From a virus, in IMG/VR virus record IMGVR_UViG_3300017788_000035, positions 1 through 52,085 of that record: 52,085 bases of DNA, one strand, 5' to 3'. Below the pieces are notes generated by a model. That model did not search any database. It saw only the letters and a program-made list of their open reading frames with translations, and had not been told where the DNA came from. A program made the translations under genes and the position numbers. Positions 10,343-19,536 of the stretch are shown in pieces (positions within the stretch are counted from its first letter, which is position 1; each line of letters begins with the position of its first letter).

Positions 10343-11263
10343 ATGACCGTATCAGTAACAAGTTTGTCGGGTGCAAATAGTTTCCAAGGATTTAGATCTT
10401 TGACGCAACGACATCCTCCTTCGTATAACAATCTATATTGGGTTAGATTTCGTAGGAAGCCTAATGTGCTGGCAGGAAGTGATTTTAATGGTTACTTCAA
10501 CAATGGTGTTACAAGTGGTCCAGGTCACGATAAATCTAGATTGTTGACTTACTATGCAACTGATGTAACGGTTCCCAGCAGACAAATCACAACTGGAGAA
10601 ATAAAATCTGTCGGATCACAATGGAAATATCCAACAGGTACTTCATTTAGTGAGATCAGTATTCAATTTATTGTTCCTAGAACTTATTTCACGAGGACTT
10701 TCTTCGAAAGATGGATGAACTACACCGCCTCAGATGCTGGGCAGTATGTATCATGGTATGATGATGCGGTATGCACATACCTAGATATTTTTAAATACGA
10801 ACGTGGTGGAGTTAAACCATATAACATTGCAGCATATACGAGTGGTAGTCTTGCTGCAACTACTGGATCACATCCAGGATCAGTAAGTTGGAATAGATGT
10901 GTAGGATCATGGACTATGCAAAATGTATATCCATTTAATATTAGTAGTATGCAGTTACAATCTGGGCCTGCTGCTGCTGCTACAATGGAAGTATCATTCT
11001 ACTTTGAGAGATATCGCTTCTTTGTTCCTTCAGAGGCTTCGGTACTTCAATATGAGACGCCTGCAACTGTTGTAGGATCAGCAGGTGTTAAGGCATCAAC
11101 CGCTGCTCTCAGTGCTTCTCTCGCAGCTGGACCTGCACCAACGACTGGAGGTACTCCTACGCTCATCACCACTGGCGGCCCTGGTGGCGCTGGCACTCCA
11201 ACAGTTAAGACTGTACCCCCTGCATCACCAGCAGGAGCGACACCTTCAAAGTCTGGTCCATAA
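10343..11263 (+). CDS. Tail-tube-fold baseplate protein, gp54-like
   Basis: A 306-residue virion protein. The section YATDVTVPSRQITTGEIKSVGSQWKYPTGTSFSEISIQFIVPRTYFTRTFFERWMN resembles the tail tube fold shared by T4 gp19, gp54 and gp48, with MEVSFYFERYRFF as a final strand. The last 75 residues are low-complexity Ala/Thr/Pro/Gly, probably a disordered tail. Position next to gp48 and before gp26 suggests the tube initiator gp54, but I cannot confirm that identity. It is transcribed divergently from gp4. Confidence 0.6.
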   Translation: MTVSVTSLSGANSFQGFRSLTQRHPPSYNNLYWVRFRRKPNVLAGSDFNGYFNNGVTSGPGHDKSRLLTYYATDVTVPSRQITTGEIKSVGSQWKYPTGTSFSEISIQFIVPRTYFTRTFFERWMNYTASDAGQYVSWYDDAVCTYLDIFKYERGGVKPYNIAAYTSGSLAATTGSHPGSVSWNRCVGSWTMQNVYPFNISSMQLQSGPAAAATMEVSFYFERYRFFVPSEASVLQYETPATVVGSAGVKASTAALSASLAAGPAPTTGGTPTLITTGGPGGAGTPTVKTVPPASPAGATPSKSGP

Positions 11264-11309: not shown

Positions 11310-12023
11310 ATGCCTTTACCTAAATTAGTGGTTCCTGAATATGAATTGGAATTACCATCAACCAAAGAGACAGTTAAGTATCGCCCATTTCTAGTTAAGG
11401 AGGAAAAATTACTCCTCACTGCTATGCAATTGGGTGAAGAAAAAGATATGATGACTGCTGTTAAGACTATCATTAAAAATTGTACTAACTTAAAAACAAG
11501 AGTAGAAGAATTATCTACCTTTGATATTGAATATGTCTTTCTCAGAATTCGTTCTAAGTCTGTTGGTGAAGTCTCTAGAGTTGTAGTTACTTGTCCTGAT
11601 GATGGTGAGACAACGACTGAAATTGATATTGATTTGGAAGCAATTCAAGTAGTTTTCCCAGAAGGACATACGAATAAAATTGAATTGACAGATGATATTG
11701 GTATTATTATGAAGTATCCTTCATTGGATATGTTTATCAAACTTAATTTCACGGGTGAAGACATTACTGTCGATAACATGTTTGAACTATCTGTATCTTG
11801 CATGTCTCAGATCTATCAAGGTGAAGAAGTATATGATTGCAGAACATATTCCAAGAAAGAAGTTATGGAATTCCTTGAGGGTTTGAAAAGTAGTGAGTTT
11901 GCAAAAATTCAAAACTTTTTTACCACTATGCCTAAACTAGAGCATGAAATTGAAGTTGAGAACCCCAATACTGGAGTGACAAGTAAAATCAAACTGGAAG
12001 GTCTGGGAAGTTTTTTCGCATAG
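11310..12023 (+). CDS. 26: gp26 baseplate hub assembly protein
   Basis: A 237-residue member of the T4 gp26 family (PF12322-like). Visible features are YRPFLVKEEKLLLTA near residue 25, the VTCPDDGE turn with neighbouring beta strands in the middle, and the C-terminal EFAKIQNFFTTMPKLEHEIE segment. gp26 is a chaperone for hub assembly in T4. The stop TAG at 12021-12023 follows the run TTTTTTC, and the -1 frame continues for 69 codons as a gp51-like protein. This is the arrangement seen in tail assembly chaperone pairs of many long-tailed phages. Confidence 0.87.
   Translation: MPLPKLVVPEYELELPSTKETVKYRPFLVKEEKLLLTAMQLGEEKDMMTAVKTIIKNCTNLKTRVEELSTFDIEYVFLRIRSKSVGEVSRVVVTCPDDGETTTEIDIDLEAIQVVFPEGHTNKIELTDDIGIIMKYPSLDMFIKLNFTGEDITVDNMFELSVSCMSQIYQGEEVYDCRTYSKKEVMEFLEGLKSSEFAKIQNFFTTMPKLEHEIEVENPNTGVTSKIKLEGLGSFFA
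12011..12017 (+). other. Putative -1 ribosomal frameshift site T_TTT_TTC
   Basis: In the gp26 frame the codons are AGT TTT TTC GCA TAG; slipping back one base gives TTT TTT CGC ATA GCC and enters the gp51 frame. T_TTT_TTC is a canonical X_XXY_YYZ heptamer. It lies 3 nt before the gp26 stop. No clear stimulatory hairpin is visible downstream; a weak GGGAAG lies just upstream at 12005-12010. Confidence 0.55.
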
Positions 12024-12226
12024 CCCTACTTCATGCTACATTAGAGAGTCATCTCGAAACAAACTTTGCGTTAATCCATTATCATAAATGGTCTTATAAT
12101 GATTTAGAAAATATGGTTCCATGGGAGAAGGCATACTATGTTGATAAACTTCTTGGTCACCTAAAACAAGAAGAAGAAAGATATAAGAAACAACAACAAG
12201 CAGCCAAAGGTCAGCAGAGTCTCTAA
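12011..12226 (+). CDS. 51: gp51-like baseplate hub chaperone, read by frameshift from gp26 or from a non-ATG start
   Basis: The frame reads IALLHATLESHLETNFAL, then HYHKWSYNDLENMVPWEKAYYVDKLLGHL and a Glu/Lys/Gln-rich helix, ending TAA at 12224-12226. The pattern with a short basic/aromatic segment, a D/E-L-E-x-M-x-P-W/F-E turn and a final helix matches gp51 and the T extension of lambda GT. There is no ATG, GTG or TTG between the preceding in-frame stop and the conserved region; the codon at the expected start is ATA (12020). A -1 slip would give a 305-residue gp26-gp51 fusion. The TAATG overlap couples it to the next gene. Confidence 0.72.
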   Translation, partial: FFRIALLHATLESHLETNFALIHYHKWSYNDLENMVPWEKAYYVDKLLGHLKQEEERYKKQQQAAKGQQSL

Positions 12227-15200
12227 TGTCACGTATCAAACCCTATAAGTACGTTAATCCAAACATGATTACTGCTATTAAAGCAAGTAATAAAATGGAT
12301 ATGTCTAAGGGTGGGGCAACCATTATTGCCGCAGGCAAAAAAATAACGGGTCCTTCAGATAAAAAGAAGACAACGGGACAGGCCGAGGGATCTGCTGCTG
12401 TATCGATGGGTCGTGCAACCCTCCTAAGTTTTAATAGGATTGGTGGTTCGATAGAATCGCTTGGCCGAGTTCAGGCACAGTTCATTAAAACATTAACTTC
12501 TGAGAAGGCATTCATTACTCAGCAAGCAGAATTTAGAAGAAGACAGCAACAAAGAGCTAGAGATCAAGCAGCAGAAGATTCTCAAGAAAATAATAAGTTA
12601 AAACCAGTTCGTGAACAAACAAAAAAACAAGTTGAGAAAACTAAAGAAAAGGGATTCTTTACTCAACTTATGGAAAAAATCTTTGGACCATTTAAAGGTA
12701 TTGTTGAGTTTGCCTTAAGAGCATTTATAACACAATCGGTTTTAACATGGATAGCAAATCCTAAAAATGGAGAAAAGATCCAGGTATTTATTAATACTTT
12801 AAGTACAGTATTTAAGTTTATATTTAATATTGCATATAAATCAATTGATTTCTTCCTTACAGGAGTATCAAATATTTTTGGTAATGGTGAAGCAAAGGGG
12901 TTTGATAGATTCAAGCAGGTCATGCTTGGACTTGGACAAGTCCTGATTGGAATTGCAGGATTCAAAGCCCTTTCATATCTAAATCCATTCAATCTAGTTA
13001 AAGATTTAGTAAAACTACTGGATTGGTTTAATGTGTTTGGAAACAAACCAACACCTTCTGCCCCACCTGCAGCAACTCCAGGCGGAGCACCAACTCCAGC
13101 TGCTAAACCAAGGGCAGCAGTACAAAAAATTGCATCTGAATATGGTGATGATGCTGCAAAGTATTATGATGATTTAATTTCACGAGGAAAAAATCCAGTA
13201 CAAGCACTTACTGCTGTAAGGAGTAGGTTTAAAAAACTTCCAGTAAAACCAAAGGGTCCTCTTGGTCAATTTGGTGATTTAATGGAGACTTGGAAGAAGA
13301 AAGCGGCAGGTGGACTGGATAACCTGAAGTCTGGTGTCATGAAGGGATGGGAAAATGTTAAGATGCTTGGTGGTAGCATTACCAAAGGTGTAAGAGATAA
13401 ACTGGCATCATCTACTAAGTGGTTTCAAGAGGGTGTCAGTAAAAAATTAACACCAATTGCTAAGTCTGCGTATAATTTACTAGAGAAGAAAGGTATAATT
13501 TCTGCTGCAAAGAAAGCAGGTCAATCTGCTAAAAATGCTATTACAAAAATACCTGGTTATGATAAAGTAATGAAAAAGGTCGCCCAGGAAGGTGGCGAGA
13601 AAATGCTTAGTAAGCTTGGTGGAAAAGCAATTCCAATTATCGGTGGACTAGTAAACCTTTATTTTGCTTATGATAGATTAAAATCTGGTGATAAGTCTGG
13701 TGCTGCCCTTGAAGCATTATCTGCTATTCTAGATCTATCTGGACTATTTGGATTTGTTCCTGGTCCATTTATCTCTTTGGCATTGGATGCATATCTATTT
13801 GGTAGAGACTTTTTCCCTGATGTAGTTAAGAAAGAAAACGAATTTCTTGATAAGATCATTGGTGGAATCATGTCTCCACTCAAGTCTATCCAAGATTCAC
13901 TACCAAAGATTCCTCAACTAGAAACTGGTGGTGTCATTAACAAACCCACTCTTGCCTACTTGGGCGAAAATGGACCAGAAGCAGTTGTTCCTCTTGGCCA
14001 AGGTGGCGGCGGTAATAAAAAAACACAAGCAACACTCATGGCTGCAATGCTGGGATCCTTGGAGGGAATGGGTCCTGGTGCAGATGTTGCCAAACAATTA
14101 TTAGGTGGTGATCTTAATAAGATCAAAGCAGAACTAGGATTGGGCATGGTTGGTGGTGTGGGCAGCGGAGAGTCTATTTCTAAAACGGTTGATAAAGTTG
14201 GTGGAATGGAGGATCCACTATCTCAACAAATTGGTACTAAAGCTCCCTCCTTTAGGAAAACTAATAAACCTGGTAATGCACCAATGACCTTAAGAGGTCA
14301 ATTAGCAAACGTATTAAGCGTATGGGCCTTATTAGCAGATTCAGACCTCAAGAAAGGTATGGGCGGTGGTGAGGGCAAAGCTGGCGGAGGTGACGGCAGC
14401 AGCGGCAGCAGCGGCAGTGGGGGTGATCGCGGCCGCGGTGGTGACACCTCTGGTGGTAATGCAAATATTCAACTTTCAGGCAGTGGATATTTGCCGCTCA
14501 TGATTGAAACTATGAATAAAGGTGGCATTAAAAATCCAAATGAAAGAATCATGTTTATGGCTCAAGTTGGTCATGAATCAGGTGAAGGTAGATACATGGA
14601 AGAAATTGCTTCTGGGGCTGCATATGAAGGTAGGAGCGATTTAGGTAATACTCAACCTGGGGATGGAAAAAGATACAAAGGAAGAGGATATATTCAAATT
14701 ACTGGACGTGCTAATTATAGAACTTATGGTCCTAAAGCAGGTGTTCCTGACGCAGAACAAAATCCAAAGAAACTAGCAGAACCTAAAAATGCAGCAAAAG
14801 TTGCCTTAGCATATTGGTTGGCTAGAGTTAATAGGGGTGCTGCGGCTAAAGGTATGGCAGGTATGAATACTGTGACCAAAAATATTAATGGTGGATTGAA
14901 TGGACTTAAAGATAGAATATCGAAATATAAAAAATATGAAAATATGGATGCTATTAAAAAAATGGCTAAAGGTGGACAATTGTGGAAGAGTCTTCATGGT
15001 ATTGAGTCTAGTCAAACTAAGGCAGATTCGCCACCCAAAAATGCAGCAAAGTCGGCTCCAGATAAAAAACCAGAAAGGTTTGCTTTAGGTGGTAATTATA
15101 AGAACGGCCAACTACCAGCGTCTGCATTAGGATCAATCAGAGGTGGTGGTAAATTGAGAAAGGAAGTTGCGCCACAATTTAATAAGATGTGGGATGATGC

Positions 15201-16101
15201 CAAAGCAGCAGGATTTAATTTAGGATTGACTTCTTCTTATAGATCGTATGAGGATCAAGTGAGAGTATATAATGAATATGGATCACCTAGAGCAGCAAAA
15301 CCAGGATCTTCACCACACTCATGGGGATTAGCAGTTGATTTGAGTTGGCCCAATACGAAAGGATATATGTGGTTAAGAAAAAATTCTAAGAAGTATGGTT
15401 TCAATCAAATACCTGGTTTAGAAACTGACAATCCAGGTGGATTTGAGGCTTGGCACTGGCAAGTTGGTACTGGACGACCATCTGGTGCCAGTGTCACAAA
15501 GGTCGATGGGTCTGCGCCCTCAACTGAATCAGATTCATCATCTAGTGGTGATACTGGAGGAGACAGTACAGGAAGTACTGGATCTGGGGGAGAATCTGAC
15601 GCAAATATTCTTGCGGAAATGGAGAGATCATTTAATGCCCTAAATCAAGGTCTTTATGGTATTGAAGCACCTAAAACAACTCCTGCTCCTGCAGCAGGTG
15701 GAACTGGAACACCAGCAGCAAAACCAGGAGCACCAGCACCAAAACCAGCACCTACTACTAATCCCCCTGGTGCTCTAGCACCAGGTCAAAGACCAGATAA
15801 GGCACTGACTAAAGAACAGTTTGCTATTGCGAAATTAGCAAGGGAGCAAGCAAAAGCTCTTAAACTTTCTGGTATGGATAAAGAGAAGTTTGTTGCACAA
15901 GCAGTGATGAGTGGCGGTACGAATTTATCTCAAGCATCACTTGATAATCAAGTCAGCAACACAGCGGCCTCTGCAGCAGCATCTGCACCAGCAGTAGTTC
16001 CGTTTCCAATAAATAATGGTGGAACAGGTACGACTATCGTCAGCGGTGGTGGAGGACAGGTAATGAGACCTGCTCAACCAATTTCAAATATATTTAAATA
16101 A
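12226..16101 (+). CDS. Giant tail protein with GH19-like lysozyme and M15 peptidase domains
   Basis: A 1291-residue virion protein. The N-terminal 130 residues are charged and helical; hydrophobic helices follow (near 155-175, 190-215 and 490-525). LGENGPEAVVPL near residue 578 is a motif frequent in tape measure proteins. A Gly/Ser linker (about 712-744) leads to a GH19 chitinase-like lysozyme domain (HESGEGRYMEE at about 782, GRGYIQITGRANY), then a VanY/M15 D-Ala-D-Ala peptidase-like domain with SYRSYEDQ, HSWGLAVDL and AWHW (about 955-1080). The tail is Ala/Pro-rich. It probably degrades peptidoglycan during entry; a tape-measure role is an inference. Confidence 0.8.
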   Translation: MSRIKPYKYVNPNMITAIKASNKMDMSKGGATIIAAGKKITGPSDKKKTTGQAEGSAAVSMGRATLLSFNRIGGSIESLGRVQAQFIKTLTSEKAFITQQAEFRRRQQQRARDQAAEDSQENNKLKPVREQTKKQVEKTKEKGFFTQLMEKIFGPFKGIVEFALRAFITQSVLTWIANPKNGEKIQVFINTLSTVFKFIFNIAYKSIDFFLTGVSNIFGNGEAKGFDRFKQVMLGLGQVLIGIAGFKALSYLNPFNLVKDLVKLLDWFNVFGNKPTPSAPPAATPGGAPTPAAKPRAAVQKIASEYGDDAAKYYDDLISRGKNPVQALTAVRSRFKKLPVKPKGPLGQFGDLMETWKKKAAGGLDNLKSGVMKGWENVKMLGGSITKGVRDKLASSTKWFQEGVSKKLTPIAKSAYNLLEKKGIISAAKKAGQSAKNAITKIPGYDKVMKKVAQEGGEKMLSKLGGKAIPIIGGLVNLYFAYDRLKSGDKSGAALEALSAILDLSGLFGFVPGPFISLALDAYLFGRDFFPDVVKKENEFLDKIIGGIMSPLKSIQDSLPKIPQLETGGVINKPTLAYLGENGPEAVVPLGQGGGGNKKTQATLMAAMLGSLEGMGPGADVAKQLLGGDLNKIKAELGLGMVGGVGSGESISKTVDKVGGMEDPLSQQIGTKAPSFRKTNKPGNAPMTLRGQLANVLSVWALLADSDLKKGMGGGEGKAGGGDGSSGSSGSGGDRGRGGDTSGGNANIQLSGSGYLPLMIETMNKGGIKNPNERIMFMAQVGHESGEGRYMEEIASGAAYEGRSDLGNTQPGDGKRYKGRGYIQITGRANYRTYGPKAGVPDAEQNPKKLAEPKNAAKVALAYWLARVNRGAAAKGMAGMNTVTKNINGGLNGLKDRISKYKKYENMDAIKKMAKGGQLWKSLHGIESSQTKADSPPKNAAKSAPDKKPERFALGGNYKNGQLPASALGSIRGGGKLRKEVAPQFNKMWDDAKAAGFNLGLTSSYRSYEDQVRVYNEYGSPRAAKPGSSPHSWGLAVDLSWPNTKGYMWLRKNSKKYGFNQIPGLETDNPGGFEAWHWQVGTGRPSGASVTKVDGSAPSTESDSSSSGDTGGDSTGSTGSGGESDANILAEMERSFNALNQGLYGIEAPKTTPAPAAGGTGTPAAKPGAPAPKPAPTTNPPGALAPGQRPDKALTKEQFAIAKLAREQAKALKLSGMDKEKFVAQAVMSGGTNLSQASLDNQVSNTAASAAASAPAVVPFPINNGGTGTTIVSGGGGQVMRPAQPISNIFK

Positions 16102-16167: not shown

Positions 16168-19100
16168 ATGGCAGTTAACATCCCCACTTCTAAACCCAAG
16201 ACCATCCTGTATAAGATGGTTACCGTGCCAAAGGTTAAAGTTACACCTCAGAATTCGGCTACGGTAACTTCTTATAAGGCTTTTACTACGGGTTTGAATA
16301 GATTAGGGGCGACAATCAATTCAATGATTGTTTTGCAACAAAGGACTAATGCCGCCTTAACAGAATCGTTAAAACTTAAGGTAAAAGAGGCAGAAAACGC
16401 CAGAAAACAAGCAGATAGAGCTAAATTTGATAAGAAAGGTGGCGGACTAGGCAAATTAGCAACAAATGTTGGTGTAATGGCAGCTTTTGTTGTCAAAGAC
16501 TTTTTTGAAAGTATAGCGGGTTTATTTGGAGGAATTCTAAAGGCAGTTTTAGTACAAGGAATATTACAATGGTTAGCGAATCCTGCAAATAGGGAGAAAT
16601 TAACTGTTATATGGAATGCGATGGTGGGATTCTTTAAATTCCTTTGGAATTTTATAAGTACCTCGGTAGGAAATACACTCAGTGGTCTTTCCGACATGTT
16701 AAACTCAAATAAGAGTTTTTGGGAACGATTGAAGGGGTTTGGAACATTTTTAGTTGGTTTAGGCGGATTACTTTTAACATTTACATTCCTAAAGAAACCA
16801 TCATTATTATTAGGTGGTGTTAAATTCGTTTTAAAAACAATTTGGGATTCTGTATCTGGTCTTATTTCACTGTTAGGGAAAAGAAAAGGTAAGTTATCTC
16901 AAACTCCAGGTGCTGCCCCTCGTACCCCTGGTGGTAAACCTGGAAGTGCTCCTCCAGGTCCAGCAGCAGCACCCAGAGGAAGGGCCGGAGCCATCATGAA
17001 GGGTATTGGCGCTGTCTCTATGATTGCGGCTCCACTCGTTGTGGGTGGAATACTGGGGCAAGGTGAGAATGAATTCACGAAAGCTAGAGATGGATCTGCT
17101 CCTACAGAGGGAGTTCCAGGACCAACTCCTGCTCCTGCTGTTGATAAGACTACTCCTCAAGCAAAAGATGGGGGTATTTTTACTAGACCAACACAAGCTA
17201 TTGTTGGTGAAGCAGGACCAGAAATGCGAGTACCACTAATAAGTGGTGCTCAAAACGCCATGAATTATAAAAATAATGGTATTTTGCCTTTGCCTGGCGG
17301 TGGTGGTGGACAACCAGATAGAAAACAAGCAGAAAATCTTTCGAAATTATATCAAGCACCATTTAAAGGTATTGGTGCGGCCATTCTTGCCAATATGGGA
17401 GCAATATCTCCTAATGTTCCAGGACCAGTTTTAAACACCCTTGTTGCTCCAATCGCAAACTCTTTTGGCGTACCTGCTGCTATTGTTAGCAAATTAGTAG
17501 GTAAGAAAGATTCTGATGAAAAGAAGAAAAAGGGAGTAGGTTTTGGTCAAGGAAGACGATCATCTCAAGGTAAAAAATTTCAACGAAAAGGTGATAATTC
17601 TGTTCTAGGTCTCTTAACTGATATTGTTGGTGCTGGCCAAGTCATTAATAATAAACTTGGTGTGGGTGAAGATCATACTGCATCTGGTGGTGGAGGATCT
17701 CCCGCACCAACATCCAAACCTCCAGATACCACTCCAGGAGAAGGAGCAAAAGAAGATTCTGCTGATGCAGGATCTACATCTGCTGTTGAAGCTGCAAACC
17801 AAGGAAAAGGAAGTCAAGATCTCAGTAAAGGGGAAAGTAAAGGTGCTTCTGTAGCTACACAACAGGGGCAATCATCTGATCAAAGAAGAAAGATGGATTC
17901 TTCTAATAAGGCAGCAAATAGGAAAAAACTCCCATTCAAAGGCCCCGATGGAGTAACAAACTATGAAGTTCTACTGAACGTAACTAATGGAGATTATGAG
18001 GTATATAAACATAATGGATTTATATGGCAGCGATTGAAAATCGATGGGGATAGTAATACGTTACAGAAACAAAAAGCATTTAATCAAGTAAGAGCATTCT
18101 ACATTAAACACGCTCAACAGCAAGGATTAGCTTTAAATTATATTACAGAAGAAGATGTTAAGAGAAGACAAGACTTAGTTAAAAAATATGATGCCGAAGC
18201 AAAATCAAAAGGAGTAGATACTACTGCACCACCAAGAAATAGAAGAGATAACGTGGGGAGAGCAGCTGGCGGATGGATTAGTGGTCCTCAATCTGGATAT
18301 CCAGTTTCTTTGGATGGTGGTGGATCGACTTCTTTCATAGGTCATGGTACAGAATGGGTTGGATTTAAAAAAGCGATGGGAGGAAAAACTGGAACTGATG
18401 CTTTCGTGGTTCCCTTCGATACTCCAGCAACTAAAAATAATCCTGGACTAACTGGATCTAGAATGCGTCAAGCAAAATCTGGTGGATATGCTATGCCTAA
18501 ATTTTCTGCTGGAGGAAAGGCAGAACAAGAGAAATTGAAAAAGAGTGAAGATTTTGCCAGCGGCGATGGAAGACCCAAGAAGAAGGCTTCTGCAGGTGGA
18601 GCAATTGTAGAAGGAGCTAAAAAAACAATTGGATATGGAAGAGGAGTTGGGGATCAATGTGCAAATAGTACTAGAGCTGCATTAAGAGCTGCTGGATCGA
18701 CATTTGCAGGAAAAGTTACAAAAAAAGGAGATCTAGACGCTGAAGGAACAAAATATAATGGTCCTGGATTTGCTGCTTCTTTTGCAGGATCTGATATGGG
18801 TACTGTTATTAAATCTCCTGGTGCCCTAGAACCTGGAGATATTGTATTATGGAAAGGTGGAGGTGGTTATGGCCCTGGAGCAATAACTCATGTTGGAATT
18901 AAAGGGGAAGGATCATCGTTATATCATCATGGTAGAAAGGATGGATTCAGAAAAACTAGTATGTATACTAGTCATGGTGGTCAATCATTTAAAGCAGGCA
19001 TTAGACTGGGAGGTGCTGTGGGCGCGGTAGGTTCTGATCCTAGCAATCCAAGCGCACCAGCAGATCCCGCTAATCCTAGCGATCCAAACGCAGCAGCGGG

Positions 19101-19536
19101 TGGTAGTGCGGATGTGCTTGCCGAGATGGAGAGATCGATGTCGGAGTTAAAGGTTATGATGGGTGTAAATCCAGCACCAGGAGAGGCCCCAGCTCCAGCG
19201 GCCGCTCCTGGTGCTGGATATGGATCAATGACAGCAGCAGATGTTGCTGCTTCTGCTGCTGCATTTAAATCTGGGGCAACCGCCTCAGTTTCTCAAGCAA
19301 CTGCTAATACTGCTGCGGCAAAAGATGGAGTGGCCGCTGCTGCAAAACAAGCAACTACAGTTGCGGCCGCTGGTGCTGCAGCTCAACTCGCCAATAAGGC
19401 AGCAGCGACTGGACAAAATGTTATGACAGCTCCGCCTGCACCACCCATTGTTCTTCCATCTGATCCACCTGGAAAAGATATATGTTTATTTTGGCCTGGA
19501 ACAGGTTTAATGAGTTTTAATGTAGGATTTAGGTAG
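16168..19536 (+). CDS. Giant tail protein with cysteine peptidase (NlpC/CHAP-like) domain
   Basis: A 1122-residue protein that parallels the preceding one. The N-terminal third has a similar plan, including LQWLANPANREK (upstream gene: LTWIANPKNGEK) and hydrophobic helices. VGEAGPEMRVPL lies near residue 350, the same place in the plan as GPEAVVPL upstream. The C-terminal peptidase has GVGDQCANSTRAALRAAG (Cys831), EPGDIVLWKGGGG and THVGIK (His908), a papain-fold hydrolase layout. Pro/Ala-rich linkers flank it. The two genes are probably ancient paralogues with exchanged enzymatic tips, and both lie between gp51 and gp27. Confidence 0.78.
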   Translation: MAVNIPTSKPKTILYKMVTVPKVKVTPQNSATVTSYKAFTTGLNRLGATINSMIVLQQRTNAALTESLKLKVKEAENARKQADRAKFDKKGGGLGKLATNVGVMAAFVVKDFFESIAGLFGGILKAVLVQGILQWLANPANREKLTVIWNAMVGFFKFLWNFISTSVGNTLSGLSDMLNSNKSFWERLKGFGTFLVGLGGLLLTFTFLKKPSLLLGGVKFVLKTIWDSVSGLISLLGKRKGKLSQTPGAAPRTPGGKPGSAPPGPAAAPRGRAGAIMKGIGAVSMIAAPLVVGGILGQGENEFTKARDGSAPTEGVPGPTPAPAVDKTTPQAKDGGIFTRPTQAIVGEAGPEMRVPLISGAQNAMNYKNNGILPLPGGGGGQPDRKQAENLSKLYQAPFKGIGAAILANMGAISPNVPGPVLNTLVAPIANSFGVPAAIVSKLVGKKDSDEKKKKGVGFGQGRRSSQGKKFQRKGDNSVLGLLTDIVGAGQVINNKLGVGEDHTASGGGGSPAPTSKPPDTTPGEGAKEDSADAGSTSAVEAANQGKGSQDLSKGESKGASVATQQGQSSDQRRKMDSSNKAANRKKLPFKGPDGVTNYEVLLNVTNGDYEVYKHNGFIWQRLKIDGDSNTLQKQKAFNQVRAFYIKHAQQQGLALNYITEEDVKRRQDLVKKYDAEAKSKGVDTTAPPRNRRDNVGRAAGGWISGPQSGYPVSLDGGGSTSFIGHGTEWVGFKKAMGGKTGTDAFVVPFDTPATKNNPGLTGSRMRQAKSGGYAMPKFSAGGKAEQEKLKKSEDFASGDGRPKKKASAGGAIVEGAKKTIGYGRGVGDQCANSTRAALRAAGSTFAGKVTKKGDLDAEGTKYNGPGFAASFAGSDMGTVIKSPGALEPGDIVLWKGGGGYGPGAITHVGIKGEGSSLYHHGRKDGFRKTSMYTSHGGQSFKAGIRLGGAVGAVGSDPSNPSAPADPANPSDPNAAAGGSADVLAEMERSMSELKVMMGVNPAPGEAPAPAAAPGAGYGSMTAADVAASAAAFKSGATASVSQATANTAAAKDGVAAAAKQATTVAAAGAAAQLANKAAATGQNVMTAPPAPPIVLPSDPPGKDICLFWPGTGLMSFNVGFR

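Follow-up and report, generated by a model that had tools for sequence, protein, structure and literature searches.

The gp26 and gp51 genes of the virus fragment analyzed here (the window: the whole stretch of 52,085 nucleotides, from a 52-kb virus record whose nearest named relatives are the Synechococcus phages S-CREM1 and S-H38) would very probably be joined by a programmed −1 ribosomal frameshift at the heptamer U_UUU_UUC (12011–12017), making a short and a long tail assembly chaperone, a reading to which we give a probability of about 0.9. Most ribosomes would read AGU UUU UUC GCA UAG and end with gp26 (TAC-N, 237 residues), while in a fraction of them both tRNA-Phe would slip by one base in the −1 direction and reading would continue with CGC AUA GCC, the product being a fusion of 305 residues (TAC-NC) with the gp51-like sequence as its additional C domain. 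The two forms would then act jointly as tail assembly chaperones during the assembly of the hub, the tape measure and the tube, as in the lambda G/GT family; the slip, its efficiency and the chaperone role of its products are what we infer from the sequences. The features of the locus are the following:

10343–11263, + strand: tail-tube-like gene, directly upstream of gp26 (phrog_45, tail tube, E 4e-39)
11310–12023, + strand: gp26, the short form TAC-N (237 aa), PF12322 T4_baseplate (E 2.9e-71; phrog_150, E 1.2e-78; AlphaFold2 pLDDT 86)
11984–11986, + strand: TAA stop of the −1 frame, upstream limit of the gp51 frame (from the sequence)
11996–12001, + strand: SD-like GGAAGG, candidate frameshift stimulator 9 nt upstream of the heptamer (family-wide GARGG at the same place)
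12011–12017, + strand: slippery heptamer T_TTT_TTC, conserved in phase at 87/88 close and 159/173 wider junctions (the wider count including T_TTT_TTT)
12017–12226, + strand: −1 frame C domain, gp51-like, 69 codons plus TAA at 12224–12226 (phrog_634, E 5.7e-22; pS/pN in the −1 frame only)
12021–12023, + strand: zero-frame stop TAG of gp26, one codon past the heptamer (from the sequence)
11310–12017 joined to 12017–12223, + strand: TAC-NC fusion, 305 aa, by the predicted −1 slip
12226–16101, + strand: next gene downstream, for a 1291-aa protein that contains GH19-like and VanY domains and may be a tape measure or a tail lysin (domain and PHROG matches)

The 3′ end of gp26 reads AGT TTT TTC GCA TAG, with a single codon (3 nt) between heptamer and stop, and the proposal of the first-pass annotation that a slip at this T_TTT_TTC leads into the gp51 frame and yields a 305-residue fusion proved exact (236 + 69 residues). 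Equally borne out was its statement that a gp51-like sequence follows gp26 in the −1 frame and has no usual start: the codons from 11987 read AAT CAA ACT GGA AGG TCT GGG AAG TTT TTT CGC ATA GCC CTA CTT CAT, and from that position to the conserved gp51 block the frame of the window contains no ATG, GTG or TTG. The identity of gp51 is real, since phrog_634, annotated as “baseplate hub assembly catalyst”, is its match in the −1 frame (E 6e-22), and the TAA of this frame overlaps the ATG (12226) of the next gene. A reading in the +1 frame was rejected, as stops close that frame shortly past the junction. The GGGAAG pointed out earlier is present (12005–12010), and a second SD-like element, GGAAGG, lies at a spacing relevant to frameshifting.

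In all of the first 84 relatives, phage records as well as IMG/VR contigs that derive from isolates and from independent metagenomes, TTTTTTC stands one codon before the gp26 stop and gp51 is open in the −1 frame. The idea that the contig contains a wrong base or a broken gene, to which the fact that one single-base change would join the frames lends some appeal, is refuted by this identical frame relation in 84/84 relatives, and its probability is practically nil. In the close set of 88 distinct junctions, which includes P-SSM2, P-HM1, a Pelagibacter and a Methylophilales phage, and most of whose members are at 45–81% protein identity to the window, the first six bases of the heptamer (positions 0–5) are T without exception (88/88) and the last (position 6) is C in all but one (87/88), and the frameshift reading, already advanced in the first-pass annotation, is consistent with every sequence-level test.

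The possibility that the heptamer is rare in itself was rejected, because TTTTTTC occurs 28 times in the window versus 23 expected, and T_TTT_TTY is found in phase six times among 14,029 codons; what goes beyond chance is its place and its conservation at 87 of 88 distinct junctions. Among the other Phe-Phe pairs of the same gp26 genes, T_TTTTTC was found at 0/96, and elsewhere in gp26 TTT makes up 67% of the Phe codons and T 41% of third bases, and therefore neither codon bias nor protein constraint explains the heptamer. Comparison of gp51 with its relatives in the −1 frame gives a pS of about 0.77, with synonymous sites saturated, and a pN of about 0.13, a pattern without counterpart in the other two frames, and both frames of the junction are protein-coding; this saturation, together with the 0/96, means that the two Phe codons and the preceding base have been kept as nucleotides and not as protein.

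The presence of an invariant homopolymer run also speaks for slippage of the RNA polymerase on T6, which would join the frames in place of the ribosomes. However, six T is short for polymerase slippage; T7, which would be better suited and coding-neutral, is seen in only 1/88 close junctions; and the codon phase, the SD-like element and the downstream hairpin described below are hallmarks of ribosomal slipping instead, so that an origin in the polymerase is very improbable.

When divergent groups were added, to give a wider set of 173 distinct junctions, T_TTT_TTC or T_TTT_TTT was in phase at 159 of them, those that keep it including phages of Sinorhizobium, Pseudomonas, Aeromonas (Straboviridae, Emmerichvirinae), Vibrio (Schizotequatrovirus) and Stenotrophomonas, and in a few relatives (L104, L111) the gp26 stop has moved some 20–35 nt downstream with the heptamer unmoved. 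The 14 junctions without the heptamer are all in a group centred on the Ackermannviridae (Kuttervirus, Limestonevirus, and Klebsiella and Vibrio relatives), in which every gp51 that the profile detects is in the −1 frame, and several have a TAATG overlap start; an ATG without the heptamer, which would have counted against the frameshift reading, appears only in this outgroup and in no close relative. In the Kuttervirus-like sequences (L103, around 2271–2300; L189–L203) gp51 is in the −1 frame with neither the T6 heptamer nor an ATG, GTG or TTG at the junction, and TAATT stands where Limestonevirus and a Vibrio relative (L105, L097) have TAATG; these junctions would involve either an AUU start or a non-canonical slip at GATTTTC. 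In some distant relatives gp51 is separated from the long tail gene by small unnamed genes (L086, 2411–2740; L088, 2394–2813; L104, 2393–2795), and the order gp26–gp51–long tail gene is therefore not strict.

A different route to gp51 would be reinitiation past the gp26 stop, giving a separate protein from the AUA at 12020–12022, which overlaps the UAG, or from nearby AUGs in the relatives. An in-frame ATG does lie near the junction in 65/90 close junctions, many relatives having one 15–24 nt past the heptamer start; several GenBank records annotate gp51 as a separate gene; and the Stenotrophomonas and Vibrio phages L090, L093 and L100 have retained the heptamer as well as an ATG that overlaps the gp26 stop (TAATG/TGATG). 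Against this, the AUA codon is ATA, GTA, CTA or TTA among the relatives and thus is not kept as a start, which speaks against the alternative start at ATA 12020 considered in the earlier annotation; the position of the ATG varies by clade, whereas the Arg codon that precedes the ATGs is conserved; the annotated gp51 starts differ between records, ACG-2014d having no annotated gp51; and reinitiation leaves the nucleotide-level conservation of T_TTT_TTC unexplained. Reinitiation as the source of gp51 is for these reasons very unlikely.

Programmed frameshifting agrees with the fact that the −1 frame is constrained, in the close set, from the first codon past the heptamer, a CGN Arg in nearly all, followed by I/V/L and A/G/S, and that this constraint begins upstream of nearly every ATG found in any relative; in 20/90 junctions, the window among them, no ATG, GTG or TTG precedes the conserved block in this frame. 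Judging from their sequences, relatives with an in-frame ATG may make a separate gp51 as well, and L090, L093 and L100 could produce both the fused and the free C domain. In the public records L001, L002, L003, L004 and L085, gp51 is placed at inconsistent internal starts or is missing, and in none is it joined to gp26. The gp51 of many cyanophage records would then be misannotated as free-standing, or missed, its proper form being the joined gene.

The heptamer does not stand alone, as two signals resembling stimulators show selection across the family. Nine bases upstream of it, nearly all 88 close junctions have GARGG, in which GAG is used in about 71%, versus 31% of the Glu codons in the rest of gp26. 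The pairing predicted between this site and the 16S tail exceeds that of codon-resampled controls (z −7.8; 0/200 controls), while 19 other places give z from −3.0 to +4.2. This SD-like element, which the window has as GGAAGG (11996–12001), is thus enriched beyond codon choice, and is a candidate stimulator of the frameshift.

On the other side, many members of the family have a hairpin 5–6 bases downstream of the heptamer. The folding-energy minimum is sharp and limited to folding windows that start +10 to +15 nt from the first base of the heptamer (mean z −2.0), and compared with codon resampling in the −1 frame, those starting at 6 and 18 nt give z from −14 to −20. In the P-SSM2-like clade an 11-bp stem starts 5 nt past the heptamer, with 92.9% of cells paired and UA/GC/AU pair types at one position; it shows 8 double-sided changes versus 2.3 in shuffles (0/500) and a covariation score of 0.215 versus 0.121 shuffled (0/500), a control that overstates the certainty, as these sequences are kin to each other; they were also chosen because they pair, and the pairing is abolished when the partner is slid 1–3 columns. 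RNAalifold gave no consensus hairpin across all 88 junctions, because the clades use different stems, and the evidence for the hairpin consists of single-sequence statistics and the alignment of this one clade. In the window itself a hairpin is not significant at 43, 63 or 103 nt (z −0.71), and no strong downstream hairpin was found in its nearest relatives S-CREM1, S-H38 and L005, so that stimulation there would be weaker or of another kind.

The signal of bacterial dnaX is composed of an SD-like element about 10 nt upstream, the heptamer A_AAA_AAG, and a hairpin 5–6 nt downstream. The gp26/gp51 family has the same three-part layout, although with U_UUU_UUC as heptamer, and in it the slip would give the long product, whereas in dnaX it gives the short one.

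With respect to the known tail assembly chaperones, the −1 frameshifted family that includes lambda G/GT is said to have been described by Xu, Hendrix and Duda in 2004. The window shares with it an N-domain gene that has a slippery heptamer at its 3′ end and is followed by a C domain in the −1 frame, and a position between a tail-tube-like gene (phrog_45) and a long tail gene (that of the 1291-aa protein, which may be a tape measure or a tail lysin); it differs in the heptamer, T_TTT_TTC instead of GGGAAAG, and in its larger N protein (237 aa), and Pfam gives no match to a lambda-type TAC family. At the level of structure, the best solved matches of the gp26 AlphaFold2 model (pLDDT 86) are 2OB9, which is the tail assembly chaperone of HK97, and 3FGX, each with a moderate Z of 7.5; the alignment of the N domain model with 2OB9 covers 83 residues at 4.0 Å, the next unrelated row being at Z 2.3, and Foldseek gives the TAC-N fold of 2OB9 a probability of 0.80 but an E of 0.79. 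Searching the gp26 sequence against solved structures gave no convincing match. The modeled resemblance of gp26 to the HK97 chaperone fold is supportive, not proof.

T4 gp26 and gp51 are counted among the chaperones of hub assembly, gp51 being required for assembly and absent from the particle (PMC3004832). The first-pass annotation regarded the two as separate, which is correct as far as the genes are concerned, as they lie on opposite strands with no such frameshift junction; however, the T4 gp51, with 249 residues, has its own full PF12322 N domain (1–201) and gp51-profile C domain (206–244), and corresponds to the fusion and not to the 69-residue piece of the window. T4 has, in other words, the short form (gp26) and the long form (gp51) as two genes. 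The 52-kb fragment contains one PF12322 and one gp51 match, with no second PF12322 copy fused to a C domain as in T4.

Since Straboviridae outside Tevenvirinae retain the heptamer, frameshifting would seem to have preceded the T4-type arrangement. On balance it appears plausible that the TAC locus of the T4 superfamily ancestrally carried a dnaX-like three-part signal (SD-like element, U_UUU_UUC and a covarying hairpin), which would have disappeared as a duplication turned the locus, in T4 and its near relatives, into separate short and full-length genes; lineages such as that of the window would lack only the hairpin, and others, with an AUG, may also make the free C domain.

The link between T4-type hub chaperones and the frameshifted class, which had been put forward as a novelty, is supported, but the concept is already known. 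Poly-T −1 signals in the TAC-N genes of T4-like phages (as reported in PMC12846349), and the solution of some of these phages with a short gene and a fused gene (in PMC10885494), are credited to Vladimirov, Gautam and Davidson (2022; Virology 566:9–15), whose T4-like gp26/gp51 are the same genes as in the window; the second of these statements is borne out for T4 by the domain matches given above. The TAC locus of the Vandenendeviridae (phage Adele), although in another phage family, likewise shows conservation of a −1 frameshift, with a motif of the GTTTTT type where TAC-N has its 3′ end, and a −1 frame open in all genomes; stimulators are not among the features described in the available text (PMC12846349). 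In the open literature, with Vladimirov et al. (2022) represented by the papers that cite it, no description of the cyanophage junction, the SD-like element or the hairpin was found, and as far as that literature shows, what is new are the conservation statistics and the stimulators.

This arrangement would unite the hub chaperones of the T4 type and the tail chaperones of siphophages in a single scheme, and would explain the relation between T4 gp26 and gp51. It would also offer a natural series (the heptamer only, with hairpin, with AUG, and duplicated genes) in which the control of the ratio between the chaperone forms could be tested.

Finally, the two very long adjacent proteins downstream in the window (12226–16101 and 16168–19536) have common N-terminal PHROG matches (phrog_1200, 790, 2588 and 17500) and look like paralogous tail proteins, one of which is perhaps an unrecognized tape measure.
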